A stretch of 64,000 bases of DNA from Quadrisphaera sp. RL12-1S (lineage in GTDB: Bacteria > Actinomycetota > Actinomycetes > Actinomycetales > Quadrisphaeraceae): the NCBI RefSeq assembly GCF_014270065.1, contig NZ_JACNME010000002.1, forward strand, positions 310,001 to 374,000. Direction: 5' to 3'. Position numbers and translations under genes: made by a program. Positions 26,713-55,464 of this stretch are shown here, one piece after another. The notes beneath the pieces were generated by a model. It saw only the letters and a program-made list of their open reading frames with translations, did no database searches and was not told the DNA's origin. Position 1 is the first letter of the stretch, and each line of letters opens with the position of its first letter.

Positions 26713-26750
26713 GGACGGGCGAGCGCGAGCACCGGAGGCACCGGAAGCAG

Positions 26751-26843
26751 CGGAGGCGGACGGGGATCGAACCCGCCAGACCGAGGTGCTCGGTCTCGTC
26801 GGCTTTGAAGGCCGCGACTCCCACCAGGTGAGCAGACGCCTCC
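26751..26843 (-). tRNA. selC: tRNA-Sec (UCA anticodon)
   Basis: A 93-nt cloverleaf on the minus strand, 5' end at 26843. The acceptor GGAGGCG pairs with CGCCTCC; the anticodon loop CTTCAAA puts UCA at 26806-26808; an 8-bp extra arm (AGACCGAG with CTCGGTCT) and the T-loop GGTTCGATCC follow. The long extra arm, extended acceptor/T domain and UCA anticodon identify selC. The discriminator is G and no CCA is encoded. It lies between the chemoreceptor gene and selD. Confidence 0.95.
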
Positions 26844-43634: not shown

Positions 43635-43985
43635 TCAGGAGCCGCTGACCAGCCCCGCCACCGCGCGCAGGTCGGCCACGAGGGCCGCGTAGGCGGCGTC
43701 GCGGGCGTCCTCGGGGGTGCGCAGCACCGCCGAGGGGTGGGTGGTGACGAAGAAGGTCTTGGTGCCCCGGGTCGTCTCGCGCTCGATGGGGTGGCCGCGG
43801 TCCTTGCCGATGCGGACCGCGGGCCCCAGCAGCGCCTTCGCGGCCGTCGCCCCCAGCAGGACGACGACGCGCGGGTCCACCAGGCGCAGCTCCTCGGCCA
43901 GCCACGGCTTGCAGGCGGTGATGTGCGCGGCCTCGGGGGTCGCGTGGATGCGGCGGTTCCCGCGCGGGGTGAAGCGGAAGTGCTT
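43635..43985 (-). pseudogene. udgX: Displaced native 3' part of udgX (uracil-DNA glycosylase)
   Basis: 116 codons reading KHFRFTPRGNRRIHATPEAA to the stop at 43635, matching the C-terminal half of UdgX including the RRIH loop and VTTHPSAVLRTPEDAR. The N-terminal half is absent because the element at 43978-55134 has been inserted exactly before the KHF codons. GC-rich codon use matches the chromosome. A GTG at 43988 could start a fragment lacking the catalytic GEQPGDQED motif and the FeS cysteines Cys41/Cys44, so it should be inactive. Downstream lies the original udgX terminator. Confidence 0.9.
43978..43985. other. attL core
   Basis: AAGTGCTT, the longest exact match between the element ends; on the udgX strand it reads AAGCACTT (codons KHF). 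Immediately inside, GCGGTG versus chromosomal GCCGTC differ at two bases, so similarity extends to 14 positions with two mismatches. Confidence 0.75.
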
Positions 43986-44043
43986 CACCGCATAGTTCTA
44001 GATAGGTGGACACGGCGGCGTGGGCGCTCTACCGTCCCCGTCC

Positions 44044-45492
44044 ATGAGCCCACGCAGCGCGTCTGCCCTGCCGACGACCCGTGCCGTGATCTACACGCGG
44101 GCATCGCTCGACGCCACGGGCGAGCGTGCGTCAGTGCTCAGGCAGGAGGAAGCGTGCCGCGGGCTCGCCCTCGCACGCGGCTGGACCGTGACGGAAGTGC
44201 TGACGGACAACTCGATTGGTGCACGTGGGGACCGCGAGCGTCCCGCGTGGCAAGCCGTGCTCGACCGCGTGGCAACGGGCGCCGCCGACGTCGTTGTGGC
44301 GTGGCACATGGACCGCTGTACGCGGAACATGGCCGACTTAGAGGAATTGATCTTACTCTGCAACGACACTGGCGTGGGCCTCGCTACCGCAACGGGCGAC
44401 ATCGACCTCACCACCGATACGGGTCGCATGGTTGCGCGCATTCTTGCGGCGGTCGCGGCGGCCGAGGTGGAGCGCAAGGCGGCCCGGCAGCGGCTGGCAA
44501 ATCAGGACCGTGCCACGCAGGGGAAGCCAAACACGGGCGGCGCCCGCGCGTTCGGGTACGCGGCCAACCATGTTGACGTGGTGCCCGAGGAGGCCGACGC
44601 GATTCGGTGGGGTGCTGAGCAAGCGCTCGCCGGCGCGAGCATGCGGTCGATAGCCGAGGAGTGGACCGCCCGCGGGCTCGGGTCGAGCCGGTGGAAAGAG
44701 ATGGGGGCGCGGCAGCAGTGGTCGGCGCGCGGAGTGCGCGGGGTGCTCACCTCGCCGCGCTACATCGGGGTGCGCGTCTACAACGGGGAGCGCATGGACG
44801 CGCCGGGCACGTGGCCGGCCATCCTTACGGCTGAGCAGCACGAGCAGTTGACGGCGCTGCTCAACGACGAGTCGCGAACCGCGGGGACCATCAAGTTGGG
44901 GCGCACCCCGTCTAACTTGCTCACGGCCATTGCGGAGTGTGGGTCGTGCGGCTGCACCGTGAACGCGTCAAAGTCCCGCGGCAGGGACGTGTACGTGTGC
45001 CGGTCGGAGTCGTGCACGTCGCGCGTGAAGGTGGAGCGCGCCCCGGCTGACGCGGCGGTGGCCGCTGCCGTCATCGCAAGGCTGACCATGCTCGCCGCCG
45101 GTACTGACCCGGCCGCCTCGGACGACGCGGACGCGGACGCGGCAGAGGCACGTAGGCGCGCGGCGGACGCACGGCAACGGAAGGCCGAGGCGGCGGCGCT
45201 GTTCGCGGAAGGGACCATCGACCGAGAGCAGTTGGGGACGATCAGCCGGCGCATGACCGCGGTTTTGGTGGAGTGCGAGGAGGTGACCCGGCGTGCACGG
45301 CGCTCTCCCGTCCTCGCGGACCTGCTAAGCGCACGCAACGTCGCGCACGCGTGGAGCGCTCTGCCGCTTGACCGGCAGCGCGCCGTGACGCAGGTGCTCT
45401 TCTCGGTGCAACTCCTGCGAGTGGGGGAGCGAGGGTGGGTTGCTGACTGGACTGCAGATGACGGGCTGAGCCTTGAGGCACTAGCCGCATAG
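44044..45492 (+). CDS. int: Large serine recombinase (integrase)
   Basis: 482 residues from ATG 44044; an in-frame GTG at 44020 is possible. The catalytic domain starts VIYTRASLDATGERASVLRQ with nucleophile Ser21, then VVAWHMDRCTRNMADLEELI and the long E helix AAVAAAEVERKAARQRLANQ. A recombinase domain (GARAFGYAANHVDVVPEEAD) and a zinc ribbon (CGSCGCTVN and VCRSESC) follow, with a coiled coil rich in Ala/Arg/Glu near 370-430. It stands next to attL and points inward, as expected for an integrase gene beside its attachment site. It should recombine attP with the udgX attB. Confidence 0.95.
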   Translation: MSPRSASALPTTRAVIYTRASLDATGERASVLRQEEACRGLALARGWTVTEVLTDNSIGARGDRERPAWQAVLDRVATGAADVVVAWHMDRCTRNMADLEELILLCNDTGVGLATATGDIDLTTDTGRMVARILAAVAAAEVERKAARQRLANQDRATQGKPNTGGARAFGYAANHVDVVPEEADAIRWGAEQALAGASMRSIAEEWTARGLGSSRWKEMGARQQWSARGVRGVLTSPRYIGVRVYNGERMDAPGTWPAILTAEQHEQLTALLNDESRTAGTIKLGRTPSNLLTAIAECGSCGCTVNASKSRGRDVYVCRSESCTSRVKVERAPADAAVAAAVIARLTMLAAGTDPAASDDADADAAEARRRAADARQRKAEAAALFAEGTIDREQLGTISRRMTAVLVECEEVTRRARRSPVLADLLSARNVAHAWSALPLDRQRAVTQVLFSVQLLRVGERGWVADWTADDGLSLEALAA

Positions 45493-45495
45493 CCT

Positions 45496-45675
45496 CTAGG
45501 CGGCGGCTGCAGGCACGGCGGTGGCCGTGAGAATCGTCTGCGCGGCGGGGCCCAGCGCGCGGCGCAGCGCTGCCTCTCGGGCCGGGCTGAGGGGCGGCGG
45601 CGCGGAGGCGAGGAGGCGCTGCAGCGCAGCAGCGATCAGGGAGTCCTCGGGCGCGGGTACGGACGTGGGTGTCAT
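45496..45675 (-). CDS. Hypothetical protein (59 aa)
   Basis: From ATG 45675 (MTPTSVPAPEDSLIAAALQR), ending 4 bp from the integrase stop in convergent orientation. The middle (LIAAALQRLLASAPPPLSPA) is helical, and the C-terminus is Ala/Thr-rich. Recombination directionality factors are often encoded this close to serine integrases, but nothing in the sequence proves that role. Longer versions starting up to 45789 are possible. Confidence 0.5.
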   Translation of the reverse strand: MTPTSVPAPEDSLIAAALQRLLASAPPPLSPAREAALRRALGPAAQTILTATAVPAAAA

Positions 45676-45972
45676 GCTCCGCACGTGGGGCGGTCGTGCG
45701 TCGGTTACCCGCGCCGTGTGGGCGATGCCGACGGCCGGCGGGCACGTCTGACGGACACTCTTGCTCCGCGAAATGCCGCGACGTCTCACATGCTGAGGCT
45801 GTGATGCACGTCATGGTCACAGCTCTGATCAGCACCGATGTCGGCGCCAAGACCGTCTGAGCGCGTGAGAACGGCTTCTAGTGGCTTCAGACGGCTGGCG
45901 CGGTGGAACGCCGCCCAACGTGTAGGTGACGGCGCAGCATGCGCCCATCGCCCACACCCGCGGAGGGACGCC

Positions 45973-46245
45973 GTGCCATCGACCACCACTGCGCGCTGCG
46001 ACGTCTGCCGCGAGCCGTTCGACCGGCTCGACGGGCTGCCGCACCCGCGGCGCACGTGCTCTGAGCCGTGCCGGCGCGCGCGGGACGCTGCCTACATGGC
46101 CGCGTGGCGCAGGGGCGTGAGCCTCGGTCCCATCGCGCCGGCCGTGGGCGCCGCAGCAGCGCTGCAGCGCCTCGCGGACAGCCTCAGCGACGACGACGTG
46201 CGCGCCCTCGTGGAGCGCGCCGCATCCGTCGCTCTGCGCGCCTAG
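45973..46245 (+). CDS. Small zinc-finger-like protein (90 aa)
   Basis: GTG 45973 follows GGAGGG (45962-45967) at 5 nt. CDVCREPFDRLDGLPHPRRT and CSEPCRRARDAAY place four Cys as CxxC-x17-CxxxC, probably a zinc site; the Arg-rich helix after it could bind nucleic acid. The C-terminal half is Ala-rich and helical (LQRLADSLSDDDVRALVERA). No family recognised. Divergent from the 59-residue ORF. Confidence 0.65.
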   Translation: MPSTTTARCDVCREPFDRLDGLPHPRRTCSEPCRRARDAAYMAAWRRGVSLGPIAPAVGAAAALQRLADSLSDDDVRALVERAASVALRA

Positions 46246-46655
46246 CGCGCCTCTCGTACCTCCCTCGCGCCCCGGTCGGCGTGAGGGCGCTGGTGCTCGC
46301 TCACGCCCGGTGCGGAGTAGGTCCCAGCACGCGGCGTGCCCTGACGCCGCGTTGCGGCTCCGGCGCCGCCGTCCTCTCCTACGCGAACGGCCTGGGACGG
46401 CGGTGCTGTCGAGCGTTTACCGACCCCCTCGTGTCGTCGCATGAGGGTGCGCTTCCGCGCCGCTGCCTGTTCCTGCTCGGGGGCGGCGGCGCGGTTGAGC
46501 CACCTGCCGCACGCGCGGCTGACGGTTCCGGGCTCGTCACCCGGTGGGCTGAGGGATTGGACCCCCCTGTCGTGGTTGGGGTGCGAGAGCCGGTGACCCG
46601 CATGGGTCGCCGGCTCTTGCTGTATCCGGCCCTGCCGCGCGAGGTGCGTCTGGCC
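46246..46655. other. Intergenic stretch without a convincing gene
   Basis: Several overlapping ORFs exist in different frames, but none has an SD, a domain or consistent codon bias. The only clear signal is a hairpin at 46586-46617 (14-nt arms, one G-T pair, loop GCAT) followed by TTGCTG, which may end transcription from the left. Confidence 0.45.
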
Positions 46656-46776
46656 CGTCATCGGCCTCTGTAGGTGGCTACCGAGTGCTATCTCTTGTTT
46701 CCTGCTATAAGAACACACACTCTTATACATGTAATAAGGGACGGGGAAGCGTAGCCACCTACAGAGGCCGATGACG
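46656..46776. repeat. 26-bp perfect inverted repeat around a 69-bp AT-rich core
   Basis: Arms 46656-46681 and 46751-46776 are exact reverse complements (start CGTCATCGGCCTCTGTAGG). The core 46682-46750 is the most AT-rich stretch of the window and contains a nested hairpin TATAAGA (46706-46712) / TCTTATA (46721-46727) with an ACACACAC loop, and ACATGT. This architecture suits a replication origin, a recombination or packaging site, or a protein-bound regulatory region. No ORF crosses it convincingly. Confidence 0.85.
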
Positions 46777-46867
46777 CACAGGACCCCCCTTGAGCCTCAC
46801 CTGAGACGGGAAAGCCCAGCCGCGCAGAAGGCGGGTAATCGCACCGGAACTGCCCCACGTACTAGGC

Positions 46868-47233
46868 ATGACCGTCATCGCGCTCCCCGTTCGCCGTGCG
46901 GCGGCTCCTGCCGTTGCCCTCGCCCCGGCCGTAGACGTTGTGCCGGCCGTGCGCCCCCGCCGCGATTGCGACTGCGGGCAGGCATCCTGCCTCTCGTATC
47001 AGGACGCTATTGATATCGCACACACCATCATTAGCATGTATGTCGCTTCCGACGATGTGGCAGCCGAGCGCATCCGCGCCAGCGTCGGCATCGACGACAG
47101 CCCGCGTCCCGAGGGCGCCGCGCTGCGCTGGTATCAGTCCTGGTCCGGCGACCTGTCCGACGTGCTGACTGAGCGCATGCATCCCGCGGCTCGCGCCGTG
47201 CTCGCTGACGAGCAAGTGCGCCGCTGCGCTTAA
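46868..47233 (+). CDS. Hypothetical protein (121 aa)
   Basis: From ATG 46868 (MTVIALPVRRAAAPAVALAP), 91 bp after the inverted repeat, ending before a strong terminator. The first ~35 residues are Ala/Val/Pro-rich; RRDCDCGQASCLSYQDAIDI holds three Cys; the remainder is helical (DVLTERMHPAARAVLADEQV). The mixed codon use resembles the other element genes. No SD is clear. I do not recognise a family. Confidence 0.65.
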   Translation: MTVIALPVRRAAAPAVALAPAVDVVPAVRPRRDCDCGQASCLSYQDAIDIAHTIISMYVASDDVAAERIRASVGIDDSPRPEGAALRWYQSWSGDLSDVLTERMHPAARAVLADEQVRRCA

Positions 47234-47310
47234 CCAAAGAACTTCCGACGCTGGCCTGTGGAGCCTGTCAGCGCCGGCGCGCCGTCCTCGGGTCGCTCCC
47301 GCCCGGCGCT

Positions 47311-47347
47311 GAATGGCCCGACCCCCGCTATGGGGGCCGGGCCATTC
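47311..47347 (+). terminator. Hairpin terminator inside the element
   Basis: 16-nt arms 47311-47326 and 47332-47347 (one mismatch) with loop GCTAT, followed by GTATATCT. It separates the 121-residue gene from the next one. Confidence 0.8.
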
Positions 47348-47388
47348 GTATATCTAGGCTCCGATACTGCGAAAGGCTCCCGATCATA

Positions 47389-48228
47389 ATGTCTACGAAT
47401 CGACGTGAGATCGTCCTGCAAGCCACGGTCGCCAGCGTGTTTGCGCTCGCTGCCGCTGAGGCTCCGACTACCTGGCCCTACGAGTACGTGCGCGTTGACC
47501 GGCAGGCGTTCTACACCAGCGTCATCAATCTTGTGTCGCCCCTGCTGTCCAAGCCGGCGTCGCTGCACGACGTCCTCACGGCGCTGCGCGTGCTTGAGCG
47601 TGAGGGCGTGGTCACCACGGTGTCCGCCCACGGCGGCAGCGGCACGCACCTGCGCGTCACCCTCGCGTCCCGCGACCCCGGCGCCTGGCACGACTTCACG
47701 CGCGAGGTGCTGCACCTCGGCACCCCTCGTGGCATCGACGGCGCCGAGGGTTACGCGCTGCACTCAGCACCTCACCTGCGCTCGCTAGCCGAGCAGTTCG
47801 GGGTAGTCGTCCCCGAGCAGCACGACGTGGCGACCATGCTGATGACCCGACGAGAGGCCACCACCGTGGCCGCGCGGGAGGCACAGGCGCAGGACCGAGC
47901 CTGCACGCGCTGCCGCGTCGTCCAGCCGGCGAGCGAGTTCCGCCCGCGCTGGGGCGGCGACCTCGGACCCCGGCGCAGCGACTGCAAGACCTGCGAGCGC
48001 ACGCGACGCGAGGAGTACGCGCAGGCCGCAGAGCAGGTGACCGCGCGCACGGGCAAGCGCTGCTACCGCTGCGGACACACCCTCCCCCTCGACATGTTCG
48101 CCCCGCGCACCGAGTCCGCGGACGGGCTGTCCTCCCGGTGCACCGAGTGCGACGCCCCGTCCGAGCCCGACACCGCCGGCCCATCGATGGGCACCCCGGC
48201 GTACGCCGCGCTCAGTACCCCCCGGTGA
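47389..48228 (+). CDS. Putative wHTH plus zinc-ribbon protein of the element (279 aa)
   Basis: From ATG 47389 after GAAAGG. Residues ~10-110 look like a winged-helix region (SLHDVLTALRVLEREGVVTT then GSGTHLRVTL). From ~165 there are two zinc-binding units with paired CxxC: ACTRCRVVQPASEFRPRWGG with CKTCER, then CYRCGHTLPLDMF with CTEC. The two-unit pattern (CxxC - PxxxF - CxxC) is common in phage and element proteins. It is the largest unassigned protein near the inverted repeat and could be its regulator or replication factor; function not known. Confidence 0.72.
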   Translation: MSTNRREIVLQATVASVFALAAAEAPTTWPYEYVRVDRQAFYTSVINLVSPLLSKPASLHDVLTALRVLEREGVVTTVSAHGGSGTHLRVTLASRDPGAWHDFTREVLHLGTPRGIDGAEGYALHSAPHLRSLAEQFGVVVPEQHDVATMLMTRREATTVAAREAQAQDRACTRCRVVQPASEFRPRWGGDLGPRRSDCKTCERTRREEYAQAAEQVTARTGKRCYRCGHTLPLDMFAPRTESADGLSSRCTECDAPSEPDTAGPSMGTPAYAALSTPR

Positions 48229-48421
48229 CGTGGTGGCAGGGCCGCTGCACGGGTTCCTGAGCCACCGGCACTGCTCACCCCTGCCCCGCACCTGCCCCCG
48301 CTGCCGACCCCGGCAGCGGAGTTCCTGGCCCCACCCGCGACCCACGTGACGCCCGCGTGCGCTGCCTTGCCGAGAAGCGCAGCGCACGCGCTGGCCGCGA
48401 CCACGAGAGGAACACCGACAA

Positions 48422-48691
48422 GTGAATGAGTGGGTCAACGGCTGTGCGCCGACGACCGCTGGCGAACTGCTCGTGCTCGACGACGCGTGGCGCGACGAAC
48501 TGGTGAACCACCGAGATCAGTGCCGATGCACCGCGGCTCGACCGAGGAACCGGCGTAATTCAGACGGGCGCTGCAACTACTCAGCCGCGGTCGTGGTGCC
48601 GGTGGACGGCGCCCACGACTACCGCGCCGTATCTGCATGGCAATCGCTCTGCTATTCGCACCATTACGGAATGTTGCACCCTGAAATGTAG
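48422..48691 (+). CDS. Small Cys/His protein, possibly HNH-like (89 aa)
   Basis: From GTG 48422 after GAGAGGAA. The C-terminal half VVVPVDGAHDYRAVSAWQSL-CYSHHYG resembles the end of phage HNH nucleases (H/D pair, then LCxxHH), and two Cys pairs (CRC, C-x7-C) precede it. The match is weak and the N-terminal HNH residues are not all identifiable. Its place just before the terminase-small-subunit-like gene is where HNH genes sit in cos-type phages, which gives some support. Confidence 0.45.
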   Translation: MNEWVNGCAPTTAGELLVLDDAWRDELVNHRDQCRCTAARPRNRRNSDGRCNYSAAVVVPVDGAHDYRAVSAWQSLCYSHHYGMLHPEM

Positions 48692-48908
48692 AACGATCTA
48701 GCAGCCGCTGACGCGGACGCCTCAGTCGTTTTTATCGACCTCGCCCCTGATAACGCAGCGTGACGAGTCGCTGGACCCCAGGGGGTGACCCCCTCACCGG
48801 TGGATCACCAGGGGTCGGAGAGGGGCTGCGGCTCCCACTCTGGATGCCCAGCATGCCGCTGTTTTGCCTAGTCTGATTACTCAGGGTTATAGCGAATGAG
48901 AGTAGGAT
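48692..48908. other. Intergenic, 217 bp, short repeats only
   Basis: No ORF with support. GACCCC and GGGGTC/GGGGTGA words recur (about 48775-48820) and could form a hairpin around CACCGGTG. The AT-rich tail (about 48855-48905) may hold the promoter of the next operon. Confidence 0.4.
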
Positions 48909-49316
48909 ATGACCGATACTGAGCCGGCCTCGCCGCCGACTTCCGAGCGGGACCCGCTGACCCCGCCGCTACCGTTGGAAGGCGCCGCGTTTGCGCTGTG
49001 GCAGGGGTTTATCGGGGACGCGGCCGATAATGACCTAGAGCCCGATTCCCGAGAACTCGCGCTGCTTTATCGAGCCTGTTCGGCGCTCACGCACGTGGAG
49101 CGCTTGCAGCGCGAGGTAGCGGCGCTGCCCTCGCTGGTGACCACGGGATCGGCCGGCCAGGTGGTGAGTCACCCCCTGCTCGCCACGCTCGCGGCCGCGG
49201 AAGCCACCGCCCTCGCCTCGCTGCGCGCCCTGGCCGTGAGCCCCGACGCGAGCGCTGCAGCCTCCGCGAAGGCCAGTAAGCGCTGGCACGGCCCCGCCGT
49301 GGTCAACCTGCGGTGA
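48909..49316 (+). CDS. Terminase small subunit-like (P27-type) protein
   Basis: 135 residues from ATG 48909. The pattern SRELALLYRACSALTHVERL, then VTTGSAGQVVSHPLLATLAA, then AATALASLRAL-like helices, matches the P27/phage small-terminase layout: an N-terminal helix pair, a G-x-x-G-Q-V-V-x-H/N-P-L turn, a long helix and a basic tail (KASKRWHG). In phages such proteins recognise DNA ends for packaging. No large terminase follows, so a satellite-like packaging role or a remnant is possible. Overlaps the next gene by GTGA. Confidence 0.6.
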   Translation: MTDTEPASPPTSERDPLTPPLPLEGAAFALWQGFIGDAADNDLEPDSRELALLYRACSALTHVERLQREVAALPSLVTTGSAGQVVSHPLLATLAAAEATALASLRALAVSPDASAAASAKASKRWHGPAVVNLR

Positions 49317-49693
49317 GGCCCCGCCGTCGTCCCCCGGCCCCGGCCCTGCCGCCGGCCACTGTCGCTGACGGGCTGCCGGCCCTGCACAGCGCCGAGTTCA
49401 TCGCCGCCGTGGACGCCGCGGTCACGGCGCAGAGCAACCCCCGCGTGCTGCCCCGGCCCTGGGAGGTGCTGCGCGATGCGTACACCGGCCGCACCGCTGA
49501 GCAGCACGCCGATGCGTTCGCGGCCGGTGAGCCGCCGTCAGAGGCGCTGCTCGCCCTCACGTTCTACGCGTCGGCCCGTGAGCGTTTGCACCGCGCTGAA
49601 GACCCCGCCGGCACGGCCGGCGCTTCCCCTGAGCGCGTGGCGTGGCGCTGGACCGCGTTCCGCCCCCCGTACGACGCCGAGAGGACCACATGA
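49313..49693 (+). CDS. Hypothetical phage-like protein (126 aa)
   Basis: From GTG 49313, overlapping the previous stop; ends with an ATGA overlap to the next gene. Pro/Arg-rich N-terminus, then a helical body (FIAAVDAAVTAQSNPRVLPR and EALLALTFYASARERLHRAE). No Cys and no membrane segment. Family not recognised. The chained overlaps mark it as part of one operon from 48909 to 50937. Confidence 0.65.
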   Translation: MRPRRRPPAPALPPATVADGLPALHSAEFIAAVDAAVTAQSNPRVLPRPWEVLRDAYTGRTAEQHADAFAAGEPPSEALLALTFYASARERLHRAEDPAGTAGASPERVAWRWTAFRPPYDAERTT

Positions 49694-49899
49694 GCACCCC
49701 ACCCACGCCGCAGGACATTGAGGGCGCCTACACCGAGGCTGCTTCCGCGGCCCGCGCGCTGACCGAGGCGCAGGCCGCGGTGGCGAATCTCGTGACCCTG
49801 CTGCCCGAACGACAGCGCAGCGCGGAGGCTGCAGAACTCCGTCTGACCGCGGCCCGAGCCCGCGTTCGCGACCTAGAGGCCCGTGCGGTGGCCGCGTGA
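49690..49899 (+). CDS. Small coiled-coil protein (69 aa)
   Basis: From ATG 49690 with an ATGA overlap. After MSTPPTPQDIEGAYTEAA it is one long amphipathic helix rich in Ala, Glu, Arg and Leu (EAAELRLTAARARVRDLEAR), likely a coiled coil. It overlaps the next ORF by GTGA. Function unknown. Confidence 0.65.
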   Translation: MSTPPTPQDIEGAYTEAASAARALTEAQAAVANLVTLLPERQRSAEAAELRLTAARARVRDLEARAVAA

Positions 49900-50006
49900 G
49901 CCACGACGTCGCCCGTGCCCTGTTATCCGAGATCGACGCGCTGCGCGAGGCCATAGAGCACCTCCGCGGACGCGTCGTCGCCCTGATTGGAAAGGAGGTC
50001 CCATGA
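49896..50006 (+). CDS. Very small helical protein (36 aa)
   Basis: From GTG 49896, overlapping the previous stop by GTGA, and its own TGA overlaps the next ATG. It reads MSHDVARALLSEIDALREAI then EHLRGRVVALIGKEVP, a single amphipathic helix with heptad Leu/Ile. Overlaps on both sides and matching codon use support it despite its size. Confidence 0.6.
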   Translation: MSHDVARALLSEIDALREAIEHLRGRVVALIGKEVP

Positions 50007-50152
50007 CCACCCCCGAGCCCTGGACGCCGCCGGCGTTCCTCAGCACCCCGCCGATTGAACAGCCGATGCAGCCCGTCGCCATCACGGACGGCCTGAGCCC
50101 GATGCAGCGAGCGATGGCCGAGGCGCATAACGCGCGCTTGACCAGCGCCTGA
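50003..50152 (+). CDS. Small Pro-rich protein (49 aa)
   Basis: From ATG 50003 with a strong AAGGAGG (49992-49998) 4 nt upstream, inside the previous ORF. MTTPEPWTPPAFLSTPPIEQ is Pro-rich, followed by a short helix (LSPMQRAMAEAHNARLTSA). Function unknown. Confidence 0.65.
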   Translation: MTTPEPWTPPAFLSTPPIEQPMQPVAITDGLSPMQRAMAEAHNARLTSA

Positions 50153-50184
50153 CCAGCTACCTCCCGCCAGGAGAAAGAGTTACT

Positions 50185-50937
50185 ATGCCCATGCAGTTCA
50201 CCGCCGAGTCCGTGCCCGCCCTAAGCGCGTCCCCGATTCCCGAGATCGCGCGGAGCGCCGAGGCGTATGAGCGCGCCCTGCGCGACTACCGCGCCGCGGG
50301 CGCTGACCGTGCGCGCTTCGCACAGACACTGCAGAACGCCGACCATGACGACGCGGTGGCGCTTGAGAGGGCGCTTACGGCTGGGCGCCCGGCCCCTGCG
50401 CCCATCGACCGGGACATGCTGGAAGTGCAGCGTGCTGAGGCCGCAGCACGCGAAGCCGCCACTTACCGGATTGCGCAGCGCGCATTTCACGCCGCCATCG
50501 CTGTGGCTCTTGATCACGCTGAGGCGTGGTCCGAGGCGCTTGACAGCGAGCACGAAGCCGCGCGCAGCGACCTTGCTGACGCGCTGAACAGCGTGCGCGC
50601 GGCCACACAGCGCCTCGACGAGATCGACGGCGCATCGGCCGCCGCGCACCACTTGCTCACCTCGCCCCACGATCTTCGGGGCAAGTTCCTCCGCGGCGGG
50701 GTGCGCTTTGGTTCCCACCTGACGTATCAGGACCGGGTGACCACGGCTGACGAACTGCTCGACGGCCTGTCGCGCTACCAGCAGCGCAGTCCCGGCCAGA
50801 AGATCGCAGACCAGCGCACCGAGCAAGGGCGCCCGCGGGCGTTGGCCTCCCCGGTGAGCCGTGCCTTTGAGGGTGGGGACCGCTGGCCTGACGCGAGGGT
50901 CGGTGGCTCGCTAGGCGGGCTGGTCCGCGGGTGGTGA
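50185..50937 (+). CDS. Hypothetical helical protein (250 aa)
   Basis: From ATG 50185, with AGGAG 11 nt upstream; ATG 50191 is an alternative with even longer spacing. Long Ala/Arg/Glu helices (EIARSAEAYERALRDYRAAG, DLADALNSVRAATQRLDEID) suggest a coiled coil, followed by a basic Gly-rich C-terminus. The length and helical content would suit a phage scaffold- or minor head-like protein, but there is no motif to show it. Last gene of the chained set. Confidence 0.65.
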   Translation: MPMQFTAESVPALSASPIPEIARSAEAYERALRDYRAAGADRARFAQTLQNADHDDAVALERALTAGRPAPAPIDRDMLEVQRAEAAAREAATYRIAQRAFHAAIAVALDHAEAWSEALDSEHEAARSDLADALNSVRAATQRLDEIDGASAAAHHLLTSPHDLRGKFLRGGVRFGSHLTYQDRVTTADELLDGLSRYQQRSPGQKIADQRTEQGRPRALASPVSRAFEGGDRWPDARVGGSLGGLVRGW

Positions 50938-51072
50938 TTACGCGAGGCGACGACACGAGACGCTGGCCCCCTGGACGGTCCAGCCGCTGGCGCTCTGCCA
51001 ACGACCGTCCCATCTGTGCCACACTCCGCACCCACTGACCGAGCATGTGAGGCGGGGCGGGAGCATGGATAC

Positions 51073-51816
51073 ATGGCCCTAGTCCGTGAGTACTCATCCA
51101 CGGCGGTTGTCGTCAAGTGCCCAGTGCCGCCAGGCATGCTCACAGCGGCCTGGGCTGCTCGCCACAACATCATTGATGCGTCACAGCTGCCCGATGTTGA
51201 GTATCAAGAGGTAAGCGCTGATGCGATCACCTGGCGAAGCGAGTGGCTGATTTTCACCGCGACCTCAGATTCGCTGCAATTGTTGACAGACAATGAAGCT
51301 CAGGTGGGGCCGCTGCGAGACGTTGCCATTGCCGTCCTGCGCAGCCTGCCCGACACTCCGGTCATCGCGCTGGGAATCAACTACGCCATACATTTCGCAG
51401 TCGGCGGTCGCGAGAATGCTCACAAATTGGCGGACACCATTGCCCCAAAGGATATCTGGGGTGATGCATTACCGCTCGGCGGCCTTCTGGGTCTCACTTT
51501 ACAGTCCAACAGACCAGGCTTGGATGCAGGCCGAGTAACTACTCGGATAGAGCCGTCAACCCTTATACCGCCTAATGGCTTTTTCGTCACCGTAAACGAT
51601 CATTATGACCTATGGAGACTCGAAGAGCCGATTCTAAGCCGAGATGACGTCCCCTCGGCGCCCGCGCCCCCTACAACCATCGAGGCACAGTGGGAATTGG
51701 GGCAGGGGGCGCGGGTCGTTGCCATAGAGGTGTTGGAGCGAGTTTGGAACGACTCCAACCGGCGAGCAACGGAGATATTTGAGAAGGCATATTCCTTCAC
51801 CGGGCAACGTCCATGA
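51073..51816 (+). CDS. Unknown cargo protein A (247 aa)
   Basis: From ATG 51073 (MALVREYSSTAVVVKCPVPP); an earlier in-frame ATG at 51016 lacks an SD. It appears as an alpha/beta protein: a beta-rich start, YQEVSADAITWRSEWLIFTA, a central helix (DVAIAVLRSLPDTPVIALGI then NYAIHF), and a C-terminal amphipathic helix (IEVLERVWNDSNRRATEIFE). No catalytic motif recognised. Codon and base use are clearly less GC-rich than the flanks. First gene of a three-gene operon (ATGA overlap with B), so probably a partner of the MBL-fold hydrolase. Confidence 0.72.
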   Translation: MALVREYSSTAVVVKCPVPPGMLTAAWAARHNIIDASQLPDVEYQEVSADAITWRSEWLIFTATSDSLQLLTDNEAQVGPLRDVAIAVLRSLPDTPVIALGINYAIHFAVGGRENAHKLADTIAPKDIWGDALPLGGLLGLTLQSNRPGLDAGRVTTRIEPSTLIPPNGFFVTVNDHYDLWRLEEPILSRDDVPSAPAPPTTIEAQWELGQGARVVAIEVLERVWNDSNRRATEIFEKAYSFTGQRP

Positions 51817-52376
51817 CAAACCTTCTGGCCGTCAAGGGCGATTCAACGCCGACAGTTGACAACTGGCGATCCGCCAACACGCAAGAAGGCGCCCCGGCAC
51901 CCACTTCTACGGAGCCCCGACTAGTTGATGGTGCTCGCCTTGACCCCGTTCCCCTACGGACGGAGCAACCACCGACGAACGGGCGCGACGAGCAGCAGTC
52001 ACCCAGGACTAAATCGTCGCCTCGACAGGTCGATACCAAGAGGGTGCGCGTCCGCAACCTTCGCCGCTGGGACGGCACGGTTGTCTCGGTGGACCGCACA
52101 AGCTTCACTGTGACTCTGAACCCCGTGGACCATGACGCGCCGATGCTTGATGTGGAATTTGCACTCGACATCCTCTCCGACGCGGAGCGCGCGAGCATCG
52201 CTGTTGGCTCAGCTGTGTACGTGACGTCGAGAAGCGTCCTCAATAATTCGGACCTACCGGAGCGCACGGTGGCGGTTCGATTGCGCCGCCTCTTTGCAAA
52301 GTCAACCGACGAGATTGAGCGTATCGACAAGAAGGCGCGCGCATTGAGAGAAAGACTTGACTCGCTGGCCGAGTGA
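51813..52376 (+). CDS. Unknown cargo protein B (187 aa)
   Basis: From ATG 51813 (ATGA overlap with A). The first ~75 residues are polar and probably disordered; 76-160 form a small beta-barrel (VRNLRRWDGTVVSVDRTSFT then VTLNPVD, VEFALDILSDAERASIAVGS then AVYV); the last 25 residues are a basic helix (DEIERIDKKARALRERLDSL). The beta-barrel looks OB- or SH3-like and could be an adaptor. No homologue recognised. It overlaps gene C by 20 bp. Confidence 0.7.
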   Translation: MTNLLAVKGDSTPTVDNWRSANTQEGAPAPTSTEPRLVDGARLDPVPLRTEQPPTNGRDEQQSPRTKSSPRQVDTKRVRVRNLRRWDGTVVSVDRTSFTVTLNPVDHDAPMLDVEFALDILSDAERASIAVGSAVYVTSRSVLNNSDLPERTVAVRLRRLFAKSTDEIERIDKKARALRERLDSLAE

Positions 52377-53442
52377 TCCGCCCGCGTCTACGGACGTTGA
52401 GGTATCACTTTTCGGCCCAGGGCGGGGCGAATGCTGCCTGGTGCACCTGGGTAGCGGCAGGTGGATGGTCGTTGATTCATGCATTGATCAGCGGACCGGT
52501 CGCGTCCCCGCACTTGATTACCTAGACGCCATCGGCGTGGATGCTGCAACGTCCGTCGATCTTGTCATTGGTACTCATGCACACCAAGATCACATAGCTG
52601 GCCTGGCGTCAGTCTATGAACGATGCGCCTCAGCTCGCTTCGTGATACCACAAGCGCTTAGGAATGATGATTACTTTGCGCTCTTGCAGGAAGAATCGGG
52701 CCCAATCGCCAGCCGTGGAACCTACAACGAGTACAGTCGCATTTTTGACATGGTGCGCCACCGTCCTCTTACTATTCCCCCATATATCAAGTTCGCCATA
52801 GCCGATCGATACCTACTGGAGAGGTCGGCGGGCGCACCGGCCGACGTACGTGTGCTGGCGCCCAGCGATGAGGCGGTCACGCGTGCAATCAAGGCCATTG
52901 CTGCCGTAAGGGTCGCGAACGACGCGGGACGCCCTCCACCAAGATCGAATGCGAACGAGACATCTATTGCGCTCTGGATTGATGCTGGCTCGACGCGCTT
53001 GCTCCTCGGAGGCGATGTCGAGCGCGGTCCCGCCAACTGCGGATGGGCTGCTGTAGTCGATGGCTTCACGCCGATAAGCCGGGCGGCCTACTTCAAGGTG
53101 CCGCACCATGGCTCCCCGAATGCCCACTTGGATGCGGTCTGGAACACCCTTTTGGAGCCGAACGTCATATCGACTTTAGCTCCGTTTCGCCTAGGTAAAA
53201 ACGCCCGACCTAATGCCACCGATAGACAGCGAATCAAAGAGGCATCGGGCGAAGCATATGCCACTGCTGCTACCAAGCGGCCAGCCTTGAGCAAGCAGGC
53301 GAAGGAAGAAGTTCTGCACTTCGGCAATCTCGCTCGCTCGGTCCACGACCCATACGGCGCGTGCGGGCAAGTACGTGCCCGCCACACGGCCGAGACCAAC
53401 CGCTGGACGGTCCAAACTTACGGCCAGGCATACAAGATGTGA
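52357..53442 (+). CDS. ComEC-like metallo-beta-lactamase-fold hydrolase (cargo protein C, 361 aa)
   Basis: Starts at TTG 52357 inside gene B; no ATG or GTG is available in frame before the domain. The MBL motif is VIGTHAHQDHIAG (His74, His76, Asp78, His79); LLLGGDVERG supplies Asp220 and KVPHHGSPNAH the His250/His251 pair, the PHHGS form typical of ComEC/Rec2 hydrolase domains. There are no membrane helices, so it is a soluble version. Likely a metal-dependent phosphodiesterase or nuclease acting on nucleic acid or nucleotide signals. Such soluble MBL proteins recur in mobile-element defence and conflict loci. The TTG start suggests output limited relative to B. Confidence 0.82.
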   Translation: MTRWPSDPPASTDVEVSLFGPGRGECCLVHLGSGRWMVVDSCIDQRTGRVPALDYLDAIGVDAATSVDLVIGTHAHQDHIAGLASVYERCASARFVIPQALRNDDYFALLQEESGPIASRGTYNEYSRIFDMVRHRPLTIPPYIKFAIADRYLLERSAGAPADVRVLAPSDEAVTRAIKAIAAVRVANDAGRPPPRSNANETSIALWIDAGSTRLLLGGDVERGPANCGWAAVVDGFTPISRAAYFKVPHHGSPNAHLDAVWNTLLEPNVISTLAPFRLGKNARPNATDRQRIKEASGEAYATAATKRPALSKQAKEEVLHFGNLARSVHDPYGACGQVRARHTAETNRWTVQTYGQAYKM

Positions 53443-53637
53443 GATCATGAAAAGCACGCGGTGTGTCGGTGCCGTCCACCTCATCGACAGGCCACACCTT
53501 CGCGCCGGCGCGGCGTACAGGCTGGAGAGCGACGCCCGAAGGGCCACGCCAGTGGGTTGTGGGAATCGTCCCCGTCACCACGCGGGCGCTGCCACCGTAG
53601 GCTCATGCGACCAGCCTCACATTGGGATGCGTGAGAT

Positions 53638-54048
53638 ATGCCCGGCAATCGGCCCTCAGCGTTCGGGCAGGATGAAGCACTCAACTTCCTCGTCCGTATG
53701 ATCGAAGACGAGCCCGATGAAGCGGTGATGCTCGTCATGGTGGTCAATGGCGCCATCCTCTCGGGGCGCCTGATCCCCCGGGAGGCATGGGCCTCGCGCA
53801 TCATTAACCCCGACGATCCGCAGTCTGAGCCGTGGGTGCGCCGGTTGCTCAAGATGCCGACAGCGCCCAGCGCTCTTGACGCCGACGATGGCTTTGACGG
53901 CGAGGCGGAAGTCAGTGGGCGTTTCGCTCACCTGGCCCAAGTCGAGTTCGTTCTAGGCAACTTCCGGTCGCAGATCGGGTCGATGCGTATCCGCACTGAT
54001 TCAGTGAGTGCCTGGACGACCGGCGAACTCCCACGCTCCCTCCGGTGA
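53638..54048 (+). CDS. Hypothetical protein (136 aa), weakly GvpU-like
   Basis: From ATG 53638. EALNFLVRMIEDEPDEAVML-VMVVNGAILSGRLIPREAW resembles the strand-turn-strand core (xVNGxLxSGxLI) seen in GvpU-type small proteins; the remainder has RFAHLAQVEFVLGNFRSQIG and a polar C-terminus. No gas-vesicle genes are near, so no such role is claimed. It is separated from the cargo operon by 195 bp without a gene and ends before a hairpin. Confidence 0.65.
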   Translation: MPGNRPSAFGQDEALNFLVRMIEDEPDEAVMLVMVVNGAILSGRLIPREAWASRIINPDDPQSEPWVRRLLKMPTAPSALDADDGFDGEAEVSGRFAHLAQVEFVLGNFRSQIGSMRIRTDSVSAWTTGELPRSLR

Positions 54049-54061
54049 GCAGCACAGCGCT

Positions 54062-54095
54062 CCCGGCCTCCTCCCATCAGGGGAGGGCGCCGGGG
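54062..54095 (+). terminator. Hairpin terminator
   Basis: CCCGGC/GCCGGG and CTCCC/GGGAG arms around ATCA, directly after the 136-residue gene and before the convergent small genes. Confidence 0.65.
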
Positions 54096-54120
54096 GTGCC
54101 GTCGTCGTTTCGGGGAATTA

Positions 54121-54459
54121 CTAGGGGGCGCTGAGCGTGTCGAGGTAAGCGTTCGCGCGCCGCAGGTCGTCTGCGGACGTCTCGCCGGCTTGCCAGTAAT
54201 GGCGGAGTTTCACAGGACGTGTCAGTAGATATCCGGTAGACAGGTTGCGTAGTGCTTGCACGAACGTGATGTGCGCGACCACCTGCGCCGGTAGCACCGT
54301 GGCACCGTCCTCGCCCAGAACGTGTACGTCGGCATGGACGACCTGCCGCGGCGTGGTGTCGTCCCCGACCTTGAGCCGGGCGACTCGCAACGGTCGAAAG
54401 ATCAGCAGGGCGTCTGCGTACTGGCTGACGTTAAAGACGCCAGCGGGTACAGCGGTCAT
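54121..54459 (-). CDS. Hypothetical protein (112 aa)
   Basis: From ATG 54459, overlapping the upstream 62-residue ORF by ATGA. MTAVPAGVFNVSQYADALLI and HADVHVLGEDGATVLPAQVV suggest a beta-rich small domain; the tail (GETSADDLRRANAYLDTLSA) is helical. No family recognised. The residue pattern resembles phage single-strand-binding or regulatory proteins only in a general way. Leftward operon of two. Confidence 0.65.
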   Translation of the reverse strand: MTAVPAGVFNVSQYADALLIFRPLRVARLKVGDDTTPRQVVHADVHVLGEDGATVLPAQVVAHITFVQALRNLSTGYLLTRPVKLRHYWQAGETSADDLRRANAYLDTLSAP

Positions 54460-54644
54460 GCCACAGCCCTGGCGGCTCGGCGCAGCGCTGCGCATGTCGC
54501 TGCCGTCTCCCCGAATGCCCACCGCGCCTCGGCTGCGGCGCTGAGCGCCATGAAGATCGCTTCTGCGGCAGCGTCCTCGACGAGGCGGCAGTCGTGGGCC
54601 GGTGAAGGCTCGACGGGGCGGTAGGCAACGTTGCCAATTGTCAT
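54456..54644 (-). CDS. Small hypothetical protein (62 aa)
   Basis: From ATG 54644 (MTIGNVAYRPVEPSPAHDCR), with GCAGG 8 nt upstream. The C-terminal ~40 residues are Ala-rich helices with two Cys overall. It shares an ATGA overlap with the 112-residue gene downstream, so the two are co-translated. Function unknown. Confidence 0.6.
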   Translation of the reverse strand: MTIGNVAYRPVEPSPAHDCRLVEDAAAEAIFMALSAAAEARWAFGETAATCAALRRAARAVA

Positions 54645-54785
54645 GGCACGTACCTGCTAAATCAGATGGGAGTCCCCCCTCGTCACCGCCTGGACCGGGG
54701 TGGCGGGCGCCTCGCTGTTGCGAGGTGCCACGGACGGTAGGCATGGCGTCGCAGGCGTGCAACCAAAACTTGGGGCTGTTCTCGG

Positions 54786-55464
54786 TTACTGCGGCAGCAG
54801 TTCACGCACGGCGCGCAGATCGTCCACTAATCCGGTGTACGCCGCCTCGCGTGCATCCTCGGGAGTCCGTAGCACCGCCGACGGGTGCGTCGTCACAAAG
54901 AACGTTCGCACCCCCCGCGACGTCTCACGCTCAATCGCGTGCCCCCGGGTCTGCGCCCACGCGCACCGACGGCCCTAGCAGCGCCTTTGCCGCAGTGGCG
55001 CCCAGAAGGACGATGACCTGCGGGTCAACTAGCCGCAGTTCCTCGGTCAGCCACGGGCGGCAAGCCGTGACGTGTGCGCCGGTCGGGGTGGCATGGATGC
55101 GTCGGTTGCCGCGTGCACTGAAATGAAAGTGCTTGACGGCGTTGGTCACGTAGACCTGGTCGCGGGCGAGCCCGGCCTCCTCCAGGGCCCGCTGCAGCAG
55201 CTGCCCGGCGGGACCGACGAAGGGGATGCCGCGCCGGTCCTCCTGGTCACCGGGCTGCTCGCCGACCAGCGCCACGGACGCGTGCGGGTTGCCCGCGGAG
55301 AACACCACCTGCGTAGCGGGCTCCCACAGCTCGCAGCCCTGACACGAGGGCGCCGCCGCGCGCAGCGCGTCCACACCGTCGGCGTGCTCCGGCACCCACT
55401 GCTGCGCCCCCGGCCGCTCCGGCCCAGCCGCCGGCCGCTCCCCGTCCGTCGTCGTCGCCGCCAT
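54786..55464 (-). pseudogene. udgX: Hybrid udgX (native 5' part plus element-borne 3' part) with a 1-base frameshift
   Basis: ATG 55464. Residues 1-110 are native: Cys41/Cys44 of the FeS cluster and GEQPGDQED (68-76). From Lys111, exactly at the attR core, the sequence is element-borne: KHFHFSARGNRRIHATP with the RRIH loop whose His forms the covalent uracil link in UdgX. At 54942-54949 (plus CCCCCGGG) one extra base shifts the frame and brings a stop ~5 codons later. Removing it restores RGHAIERETS to ELLPQ and a 225-residue protein ending at 54786. The two 3' parts are about 79% identical by eye. The break may be a true mutation or a homopolymer sequencing error. Overlaps the upstream SDR gene by one base. 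Confidence 0.88.
55127..55134. other. attR core
   Basis: AAGTGCTT (AAGCACTT on the udgX strand, codons 111-113). To its right is native udgX, to its left the replacement 3' end. The crossover dinucleotide cannot be fixed from sequence alone. Confidence 0.75.

Follow-up and report, generated by a model that had tools for sequence, protein, structure and literature searches.

Quadrisphaera sp. RL12-1S carries a mobile element that very probably targets the gene udgX by means of its own large serine integrase and brings with it a captured substitute for the 3' half of the gene it enters. The window analyzed here is a 64-kb stretch of DNA (contig 2, positions 310001 to 374000; the genome comprises 4.62 Mb on 27 contigs), and all coordinates refer to it. 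An element of 11,149 bp (43986-55134) lies inside udgX, and the window has two 3' halves of the gene, both facing the same way and separated by about 11,149 bp. Integration of such an element would leave the target gene able to survive, and the frameshift now found in the chimeric gene would be a late event or an error of assembly.

A split udgX gene and its empty site

The native 3' end of udgX is stranded at the left end of the element (43635-43985, minus strand), where it matches PF03167, is 86 to 97% identical in protein sequence to five congeners, and stops 58 bp ahead of the ATG of the integrase gene. At the right end, the native 5' part (110 codons; 55135-55464, minus strand) joins at codon 111 a carried 3' end (54786-55134, minus strand), whose homology runs through to the end of udgX and which contains a frameshift. 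The chimera as a whole is 84 to 86% identical in protein sequence to the same congeners. A preliminary description of this DNA, made from its letters, had given this architecture, its coordinates, and the codon-111 fusion, and each was borne out. Both 3' ends encode GNRRIH, as expected from its remark that the RRIH loop is present in each part. Its estimate that the two parts are four-fifths identical held for the protein (84 of 104 residues, 81%) but not for the DNA, which is only 75% and 77% identical over two ungapped direct repeats of 200 and 99 nt; a gapped local alignment that includes the arms beside the core matched 262 of 360 columns. The differing codon use it had ascribed to the carried part was also found, in that G+C content at third codon positions (GC3) is 0.755 in the carried end versus 1.00 in the native 3' end and 0.94 in the native 5' part, with the integrase gene at 0.83.

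Congeners retain the empty site. Each of the five has one uninterrupted udgX in which the native parts and their flanks are contiguous, such that sequence from 36.0 to 43.99 kb of the window adjoins sequence from 54.8 kb onward. Matches to the right flank extend to 64 kb in three congeners; in the other two they reach 57-58 kb, and in one of these they stop at a contig end. Thus, a split gene bounds the element, and the site that the preliminary description had proposed to look for is intact in every congener compared. That description had also named two observations that would speak against it, and neither was made: none of the five congeners has the same two pieces, and in the genome itself no second full-length udgX was found, only the two pieces and, on a different contig, a UDG that is 36% identical.

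Both junctions lie in the sequence AAGCACTT, which occurs on the minus strand at attL (43978-43985) and at attR (55127-55134). This core encodes K-H-F within AVKHF, directly after a conserved stretch named TNAV (PMC10359453). The core is 8 bp long, or 14 to 16 bp if scattered matches are counted. It reads AAG-CA-CTT, a dyad with a nonpalindromic center, a layout that fits what is expected for a serine integrase and in which CA may be the crossover dinucleotide. On the element side of attL, the arm that runs from the core to the integrase start (43986-44043) loses all likeness to udgX past about 14 bp and would be the P arm of attP.

Next to attL lies the gene of a large serine integrase (44044-45492, plus strand), which encodes 482 amino acids from the ATG at 44044 or could start at a GTG at 44020. 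Resolvase, Recombinase, and zinc-ribbon domains occur together in the one protein: PF00239 (93.5 bits) and PF07508 (51.9 bits) exceed their cut-offs, the zinc-ribbon match to PF13408 (21.3 bits) falls under its cut-off of 25.3, and phrog_95 (integrase) is matched at 9.3e-90. This integrase would have inserted the 11.15-kb element at an attB core, AAGCACTT, within udgX. The right arm of attP would then be the start of a udgX 3' half that the element acquired in an old capture, with the genus's own udgX lineage as its source. Integration would leave the native 3' half stranded at attL, and the native 5' half would gain a substitute at attR, such that the gene could survive; excision would return the native gene.

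Alternatively, the element might have carried a foreign udgX fragment that recombined with the chromosomal gene, with the integrase a bystander. In favor of this, the two 3' halves are homologous. Both junctions, however, fall in the core just described, 58 bp from the integrase start, and a core of 8 bp, or even 14 to 16 bp, is too short for ordinary homologous recombination. Moreover, the layout repeats at another gene with related integrases, as described below. We consider duplication or homologous recombination a highly improbable origin for the two halves.

A frameshift in the carried half and the history of that half

The spacing of the two repeats shifts from 11,149 to 11,148 bp, which marks a one-base length difference within the carried copy at roughly 54945-54965, in a short C/G run. 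The chimeric open reading frame (ORF) ends at 54931 (stop, 54931-54933) after 177 amino acids, and the remaining homology lies in another frame. UdgX proteins are described as having motif A (GEQPG), an R-loop (RRIH), and motif B [HPS(S/A)(L/V)(L/V)R], and in Mycobacterium smegmatis UdgX the first His of HPSAVLR contacts uracil and the Arg contacts DNA (PMC10359453). GEQPG, GNRRIH, and HPSAVLR are all present in the native halves. In the assembled chimera the stop falls after GNRRIH and ahead of HPSAVLR, and motif B is gone; the 177-amino-acid product scores 214 bits against TIGR03914, the NCBI UdgX model, which has a cut-off of 190. Because the frameshift removes motif B, udgX as assembled is probably inactive for as long as the element stays integrated. 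The preliminary description overlooked this frameshift, and its claim that the carried end restores udgX does not hold for the present assembly.

The carried half nonetheless has the marks of a protein-coding past. When the frames before and after the frameshift were kept apart, carried and native halves differed with a dN of 0.127 and a dS of 1.18 (dN/dS about 0.11) over 106 codons, of which 60 precede the frameshift (0.136/0.92) and 46 follow it (0.116/1.76). Differences at codon positions 1, 2, and 3 number 14, 10, and 56. Purifying selection has left its mark ahead of the frameshift as well as behind it, and the stretch behind it was therefore conserved as protein too. In a tree of UdgX C termini (60 rows, 114 columns, many forks unresolved), the carried copy falls within the udgX clade of the genus (7 rows, support 98/97), where its terminal branch measures 0.19. 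The idea that attP evolved from a udgX homolog thus gained support, and the homolog is placed in the genus's own clade. The simplest reading may be an old capture from the lineage of this genus, a long coding life on an element of lower GC, and a late break. The element would work like, or descend from, one that restores its target; it is not a working restoring element as assembled, because the chimera is frameshifted and ends at 177 amino acids. Function in the past is suggested by dN/dS.

A broken chimera beside two intact native halves is also what one might see if the element were a switch. By that account of regulated gene integrity, udgX would be off when the element is integrated and regained upon excision, and the carried end would be a relic or simply an att arm. 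Disruption of a gene followed by excision is known for serine-recombinase elements, as with A118 in comK (PMC4701971). Regulated gene integrity is marked by the lack of a replacement sequence, however, and a replacement is present here: the repeats, the alignment, and the dN/dS values all indicate that the carried homology extends to the end of the gene. A mere att arm would need neither that extent nor the purifying selection seen before and after the frameshift. Moreover, the chimeras tested at the second target gene, ricT, are open. We find a switch of this kind unlikely.

Recurrence at ricT

Whether other serine integrases carry replacement ends was surveyed at integrase loci. The orphan/carried pair was absent from all 21 other serine-integrase loci first surveyed, two of which had short flanks, and the window itself was recovered as a positive control; elements longer than about 40 kb would escape this survey. 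A larger survey covered 63 of 80 integrase loci (17 were omitted, mostly for short flanks, which was not the reason for L249, L250, and L259). Ten of the 63 were flagged, and two were real, L218 and L205. Among the other flags, L247 appears to be a contig repeat, and L224, L237, L248, L253, L265, L266, and L267 were provisionally judged to be paralogs or inverted copies. The survey is blind to loci that have an integrase and a full-length ricT without a recognizable orphan, four of which were found.

The real cases lie at ricT in Micromonosporaceae. In Dactylosporangium vinaceum (L218, 9708-12462), a 480-amino-acid integrase has an orphan 3' end on one side and, on the other, a full-length member of the RicT/YaaT family (NF041131, 230 bits). 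Here the orphan itself is frameshifted and the chimera is not the shifted copy. ricT is uninterrupted in five aligned relatives of L218, among 30 loci fetched, and the integrase was found in 8 of 200 genomes of the taxonomic family to which the L218 genome belongs, with that genome counted. Actinoplanes regularis (L205, 9698-16249) has the same layout and a cargo of about 4 kb. Orphan, integrase, and chimera also occur together at L361, where the integrase match is limited to the first 311 residues, and these three loci have the full architecture. An orphan and an integrase were found at L363 and on the viral contig L286. An integrase with full-length ricT and no recognizable orphan was found at L358, L359, L360, and L362, and likewise at L207, L211, L216, and L227, while L364 (about 40%) had no ricT. 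These lists are not to be summed, because match values indicate that several of the loci, such as L205 and L363, are the same genome met twice.

GC3 drops at the junction in all six ricT chimeras tested, L357 to L362 (1.00 to 0.85, 0.91 to 0.52, 0.93 to 0.80, 0.90 to 0.78, 0.93 to 0.69, and 0.93 to 0.67, respectively), versus a change of at most 0.06 in eight native ricT genes. At L358, L359, L360, and L362, this step is the sole sign that the 3' end arrived with the element. All six frames are free of stops. In a tree of 45 integrases, those at ricT form a clade of seven rows with support 100/100 (five were labeled ricT, and L211 and L286 were located at ricT afterwards), separate from the ten rows around the integrase of the window (95/91). 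Separate origins of the gene-sparing habit are likely, and a single old origin is less so. Like the udgX element, the ricT elements have a related integrase, an orphan 3' end by the integrase start, and a chimera with a carried end of lower GC3. They differ in target gene, in the integrase clade, in their open chimeras, and in a cargo that ranges from almost none to about 4 kb.

The ricT loci also bear on the frameshift. If it were an assembly or sequencing error, the udgX chimera would be intact and functional now, which would modify rather than replace the reading of a gene-sparing element. The position of the frameshift in a short C/G run, the selection that continues behind it, and the open frames of all six tested ricT chimeras would fit an error. 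On the other side, no other sign of poor sequence was seen in the stretch, and the orphan of L218 is itself a frameshifted copy, so such frameshifts do occur. An error is a serious possibility but the less probable origin of the frameshift.

Divergence between the two halves is concentrated beside the core. In udgX, the first 15 bases past the core hold 7 differences, versus 36 of 157 elsewhere (P = 0.048), and 3 of 9 invariant residues are changed there, versus 7 of 80 (P = 0.06); RFTP, invariant in six native proteins, is HFSA in the carried end. At L218 the corresponding counts are 9 of 15 and 30 of 159 bases (P = 0.001). No P'-arm consensus was common to the other ricT chimeras. The attB and attP arms to the right of the core are homologous, and therefore the integrase would have to distinguish them by substitutions. 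The extra divergence is no more than suggestive of a role as the P' arm, and that role is a hypothesis.

Single-sequence scans of genome contigs and viral contigs yielded no close integrase relative, and plasmids yielded no match at 1e-30. Alignment-based searches reached 46% identity in genome contigs (53% over one 200-residue segment) and 48% in viral contigs, and the best phage match was 46%. The nearest integrases, some from Streptomyces phages, are 42 to 48% identical over most of their length and 52% over 361 tree columns. No udgX was found in phages (69-amino-acid query) or in the integrase loci checked. A search for UdgX 3' ends covered 297 genomes of the order (41 matched) and 394 of the class (126 matched), samples that overlap, and split pieces were found only in the RL12-1S genome. 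One genome (G057, contamination 7%) had two matches, one of which was inspected. Eight udgX regions were fetched because the open frames were short, because a second copy was present, or because the match was incomplete; in seven of them the two parts of the gene adjoin, L107 had no recognizable 5' part, and none of the eight had an integrase match.

Several points weigh against a captured, gene-sparing 3' half at udgX. The chimera is frameshifted and without motif B, and restoration is not realized in the assembly. Some of the selection signal may be older than the capture. No integrase above about 52% identity was found in the collections searched, and no second udgX element was found among the order and class genomes. 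We nonetheless hold with high confidence to an element that targets udgX, carries a substitute 3' half, and acquired its frameshift late or through assembly.

Element content and known systems

The remaining genes suggest a phage connection. A phage-type zinc, HNH, or endonuclease VII-like ORF (47389-48228, plus strand) matches phrog_5558 (5e-12) and phrog_1035 (2e-11). A possible small terminase subunit (48909-49316, plus strand) matches PF05119 at an E value of 2e-4 but with 22.1 bits against a cut-off of 24.7, and phrog_83 at an E value of 0.23. Cargo of low GC (about 0.57 to 0.60; 51016-53442, plus strand) comprises three ORFs, two without a family (51016-51816 and 51813-52376) and, next to them, an MBL-fold protein (52357-53442) with PF12706 and PF00753 over cut-off. 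The latter has weak similarity to the models of the defense-system hydrolases LmuA (1e-10), RTasMBL (8e-10), and Avs1a, and the three ORFs could be a defense or effector module. Near the right end, a 62-amino-acid ORF (54456-54644, minus strand) had no match among phages, Pfam, or NCBIfam; to judge by its position alone it might be a recombination directionality factor, and this reading is a guess. No capsid or structural genes were found among the ORFs scanned, in a scan that did not cover every ORF. The zinc/HNH-like ORF, the subthreshold terminase match, the ORFs without a family, and the MBL-fold protein suggest that the element is a phage satellite of small size or the remnant of a phage. 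Satellites like the phage-inducible chromosomal islands have an integrase and a packaging gene, no capsid genes, and a length of about 10 to 15 kb.

Other features were noted in passing. An inverted repeat inside the element (46637-46795) has 45-nt arms that are 82% complementary and 69 nt apart. The only tRNA gene detected in the window is a tRNA-Sec gene (26750-26843, minus strand). On contig 4 of the same genome (460124-460375), an 835-amino-acid open frame has a marginal Recombinase-domain match (21.8 bits; cut-off, 21.1). One congener has a different serine integrase, 35% identical (G004:C2:313627-314979, L103), and no orphan/carried pair at that locus.

Integration that restores its target is known. 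When the target is a tRNA or protein gene, a replacement for it is usually part of attP (PMC10111431), and for many islands the entered gene is restored (PMC12884075). As in those elements, the recombinant udgX consists of a native 5' part and an element-borne 3' part; unlike in them, the enzyme is a large serine integrase, about half of the gene is replaced, and the recombinant gene is frameshifted in the assembly. Large serine recombinases, CcrAB, also act at the 3' region of rlmH in SCCmec and ECC elements (PMC6222049). There too the target lies on the 3' side of a conserved gene, but the replaced end is short and not half a gene; rlmH remains readable after SCCmec insertion. Elements of the phiJoe/SCO2603 type are actinobacterial serine-integrase elements in a conserved ORF, with very variable content and in some cases only recombination genes. 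They differ in that they insert 74 bp from the ORF end, and no carried replacement is described in the accessible text (PMC5311408). Serine-integrase prophages of Mycobacterium abscessus integrate within ORFs and disrupt them (PMC8092301), and each of 29 streptococcal integrative and conjugative elements with serine integrases disrupts a gene (PMC4701971). Those elements share the serine integrase, an attB within an ORF, and a short core, but their targets are disrupted and receive no replacement 3' end. The preliminary description had called a gene-restoring segment unusual for a serine integrase; these last two papers and the 21 other loci agree, but the udgX element is not the sole case, as the ricT integrases do likewise. 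A literature search conducted largely without subscription papers found no large serine integrase that restores half a gene, nor any integration into udgX, and an earlier report is possible. What is new would be a large serine integrase that carries about half of a protein gene.

It is chiefly tyrosine-integrase islands that are known for replacement ends, and the papers cited above portray serine-integrase elements as disruptive to the protein genes they enter. We tentatively propose, at somewhat less than even confidence, that large serine integrases turned gene sparing, probably more than once, by capturing the 3' half of the target as both coding sequence and attP arm. Each new target, such as udgX or the ricT of Micromonosporaceae, would have brought a new half, and the divergence past the core would be a trace of that double duty. 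Because the attB and attP arms to the right of the core are homologous, these elements allow a direct test of how the demands of protein coding and of att-site recognition are reconciled in a single stretch of DNA. Moreover, att pairs in conserved genes are possible neutral integration sites for high-GC actinobacteria. Ultimately, half-gene cases that involve two target genes and two clades of integrase would show that sparing the host is within the reach of serine integrases too.

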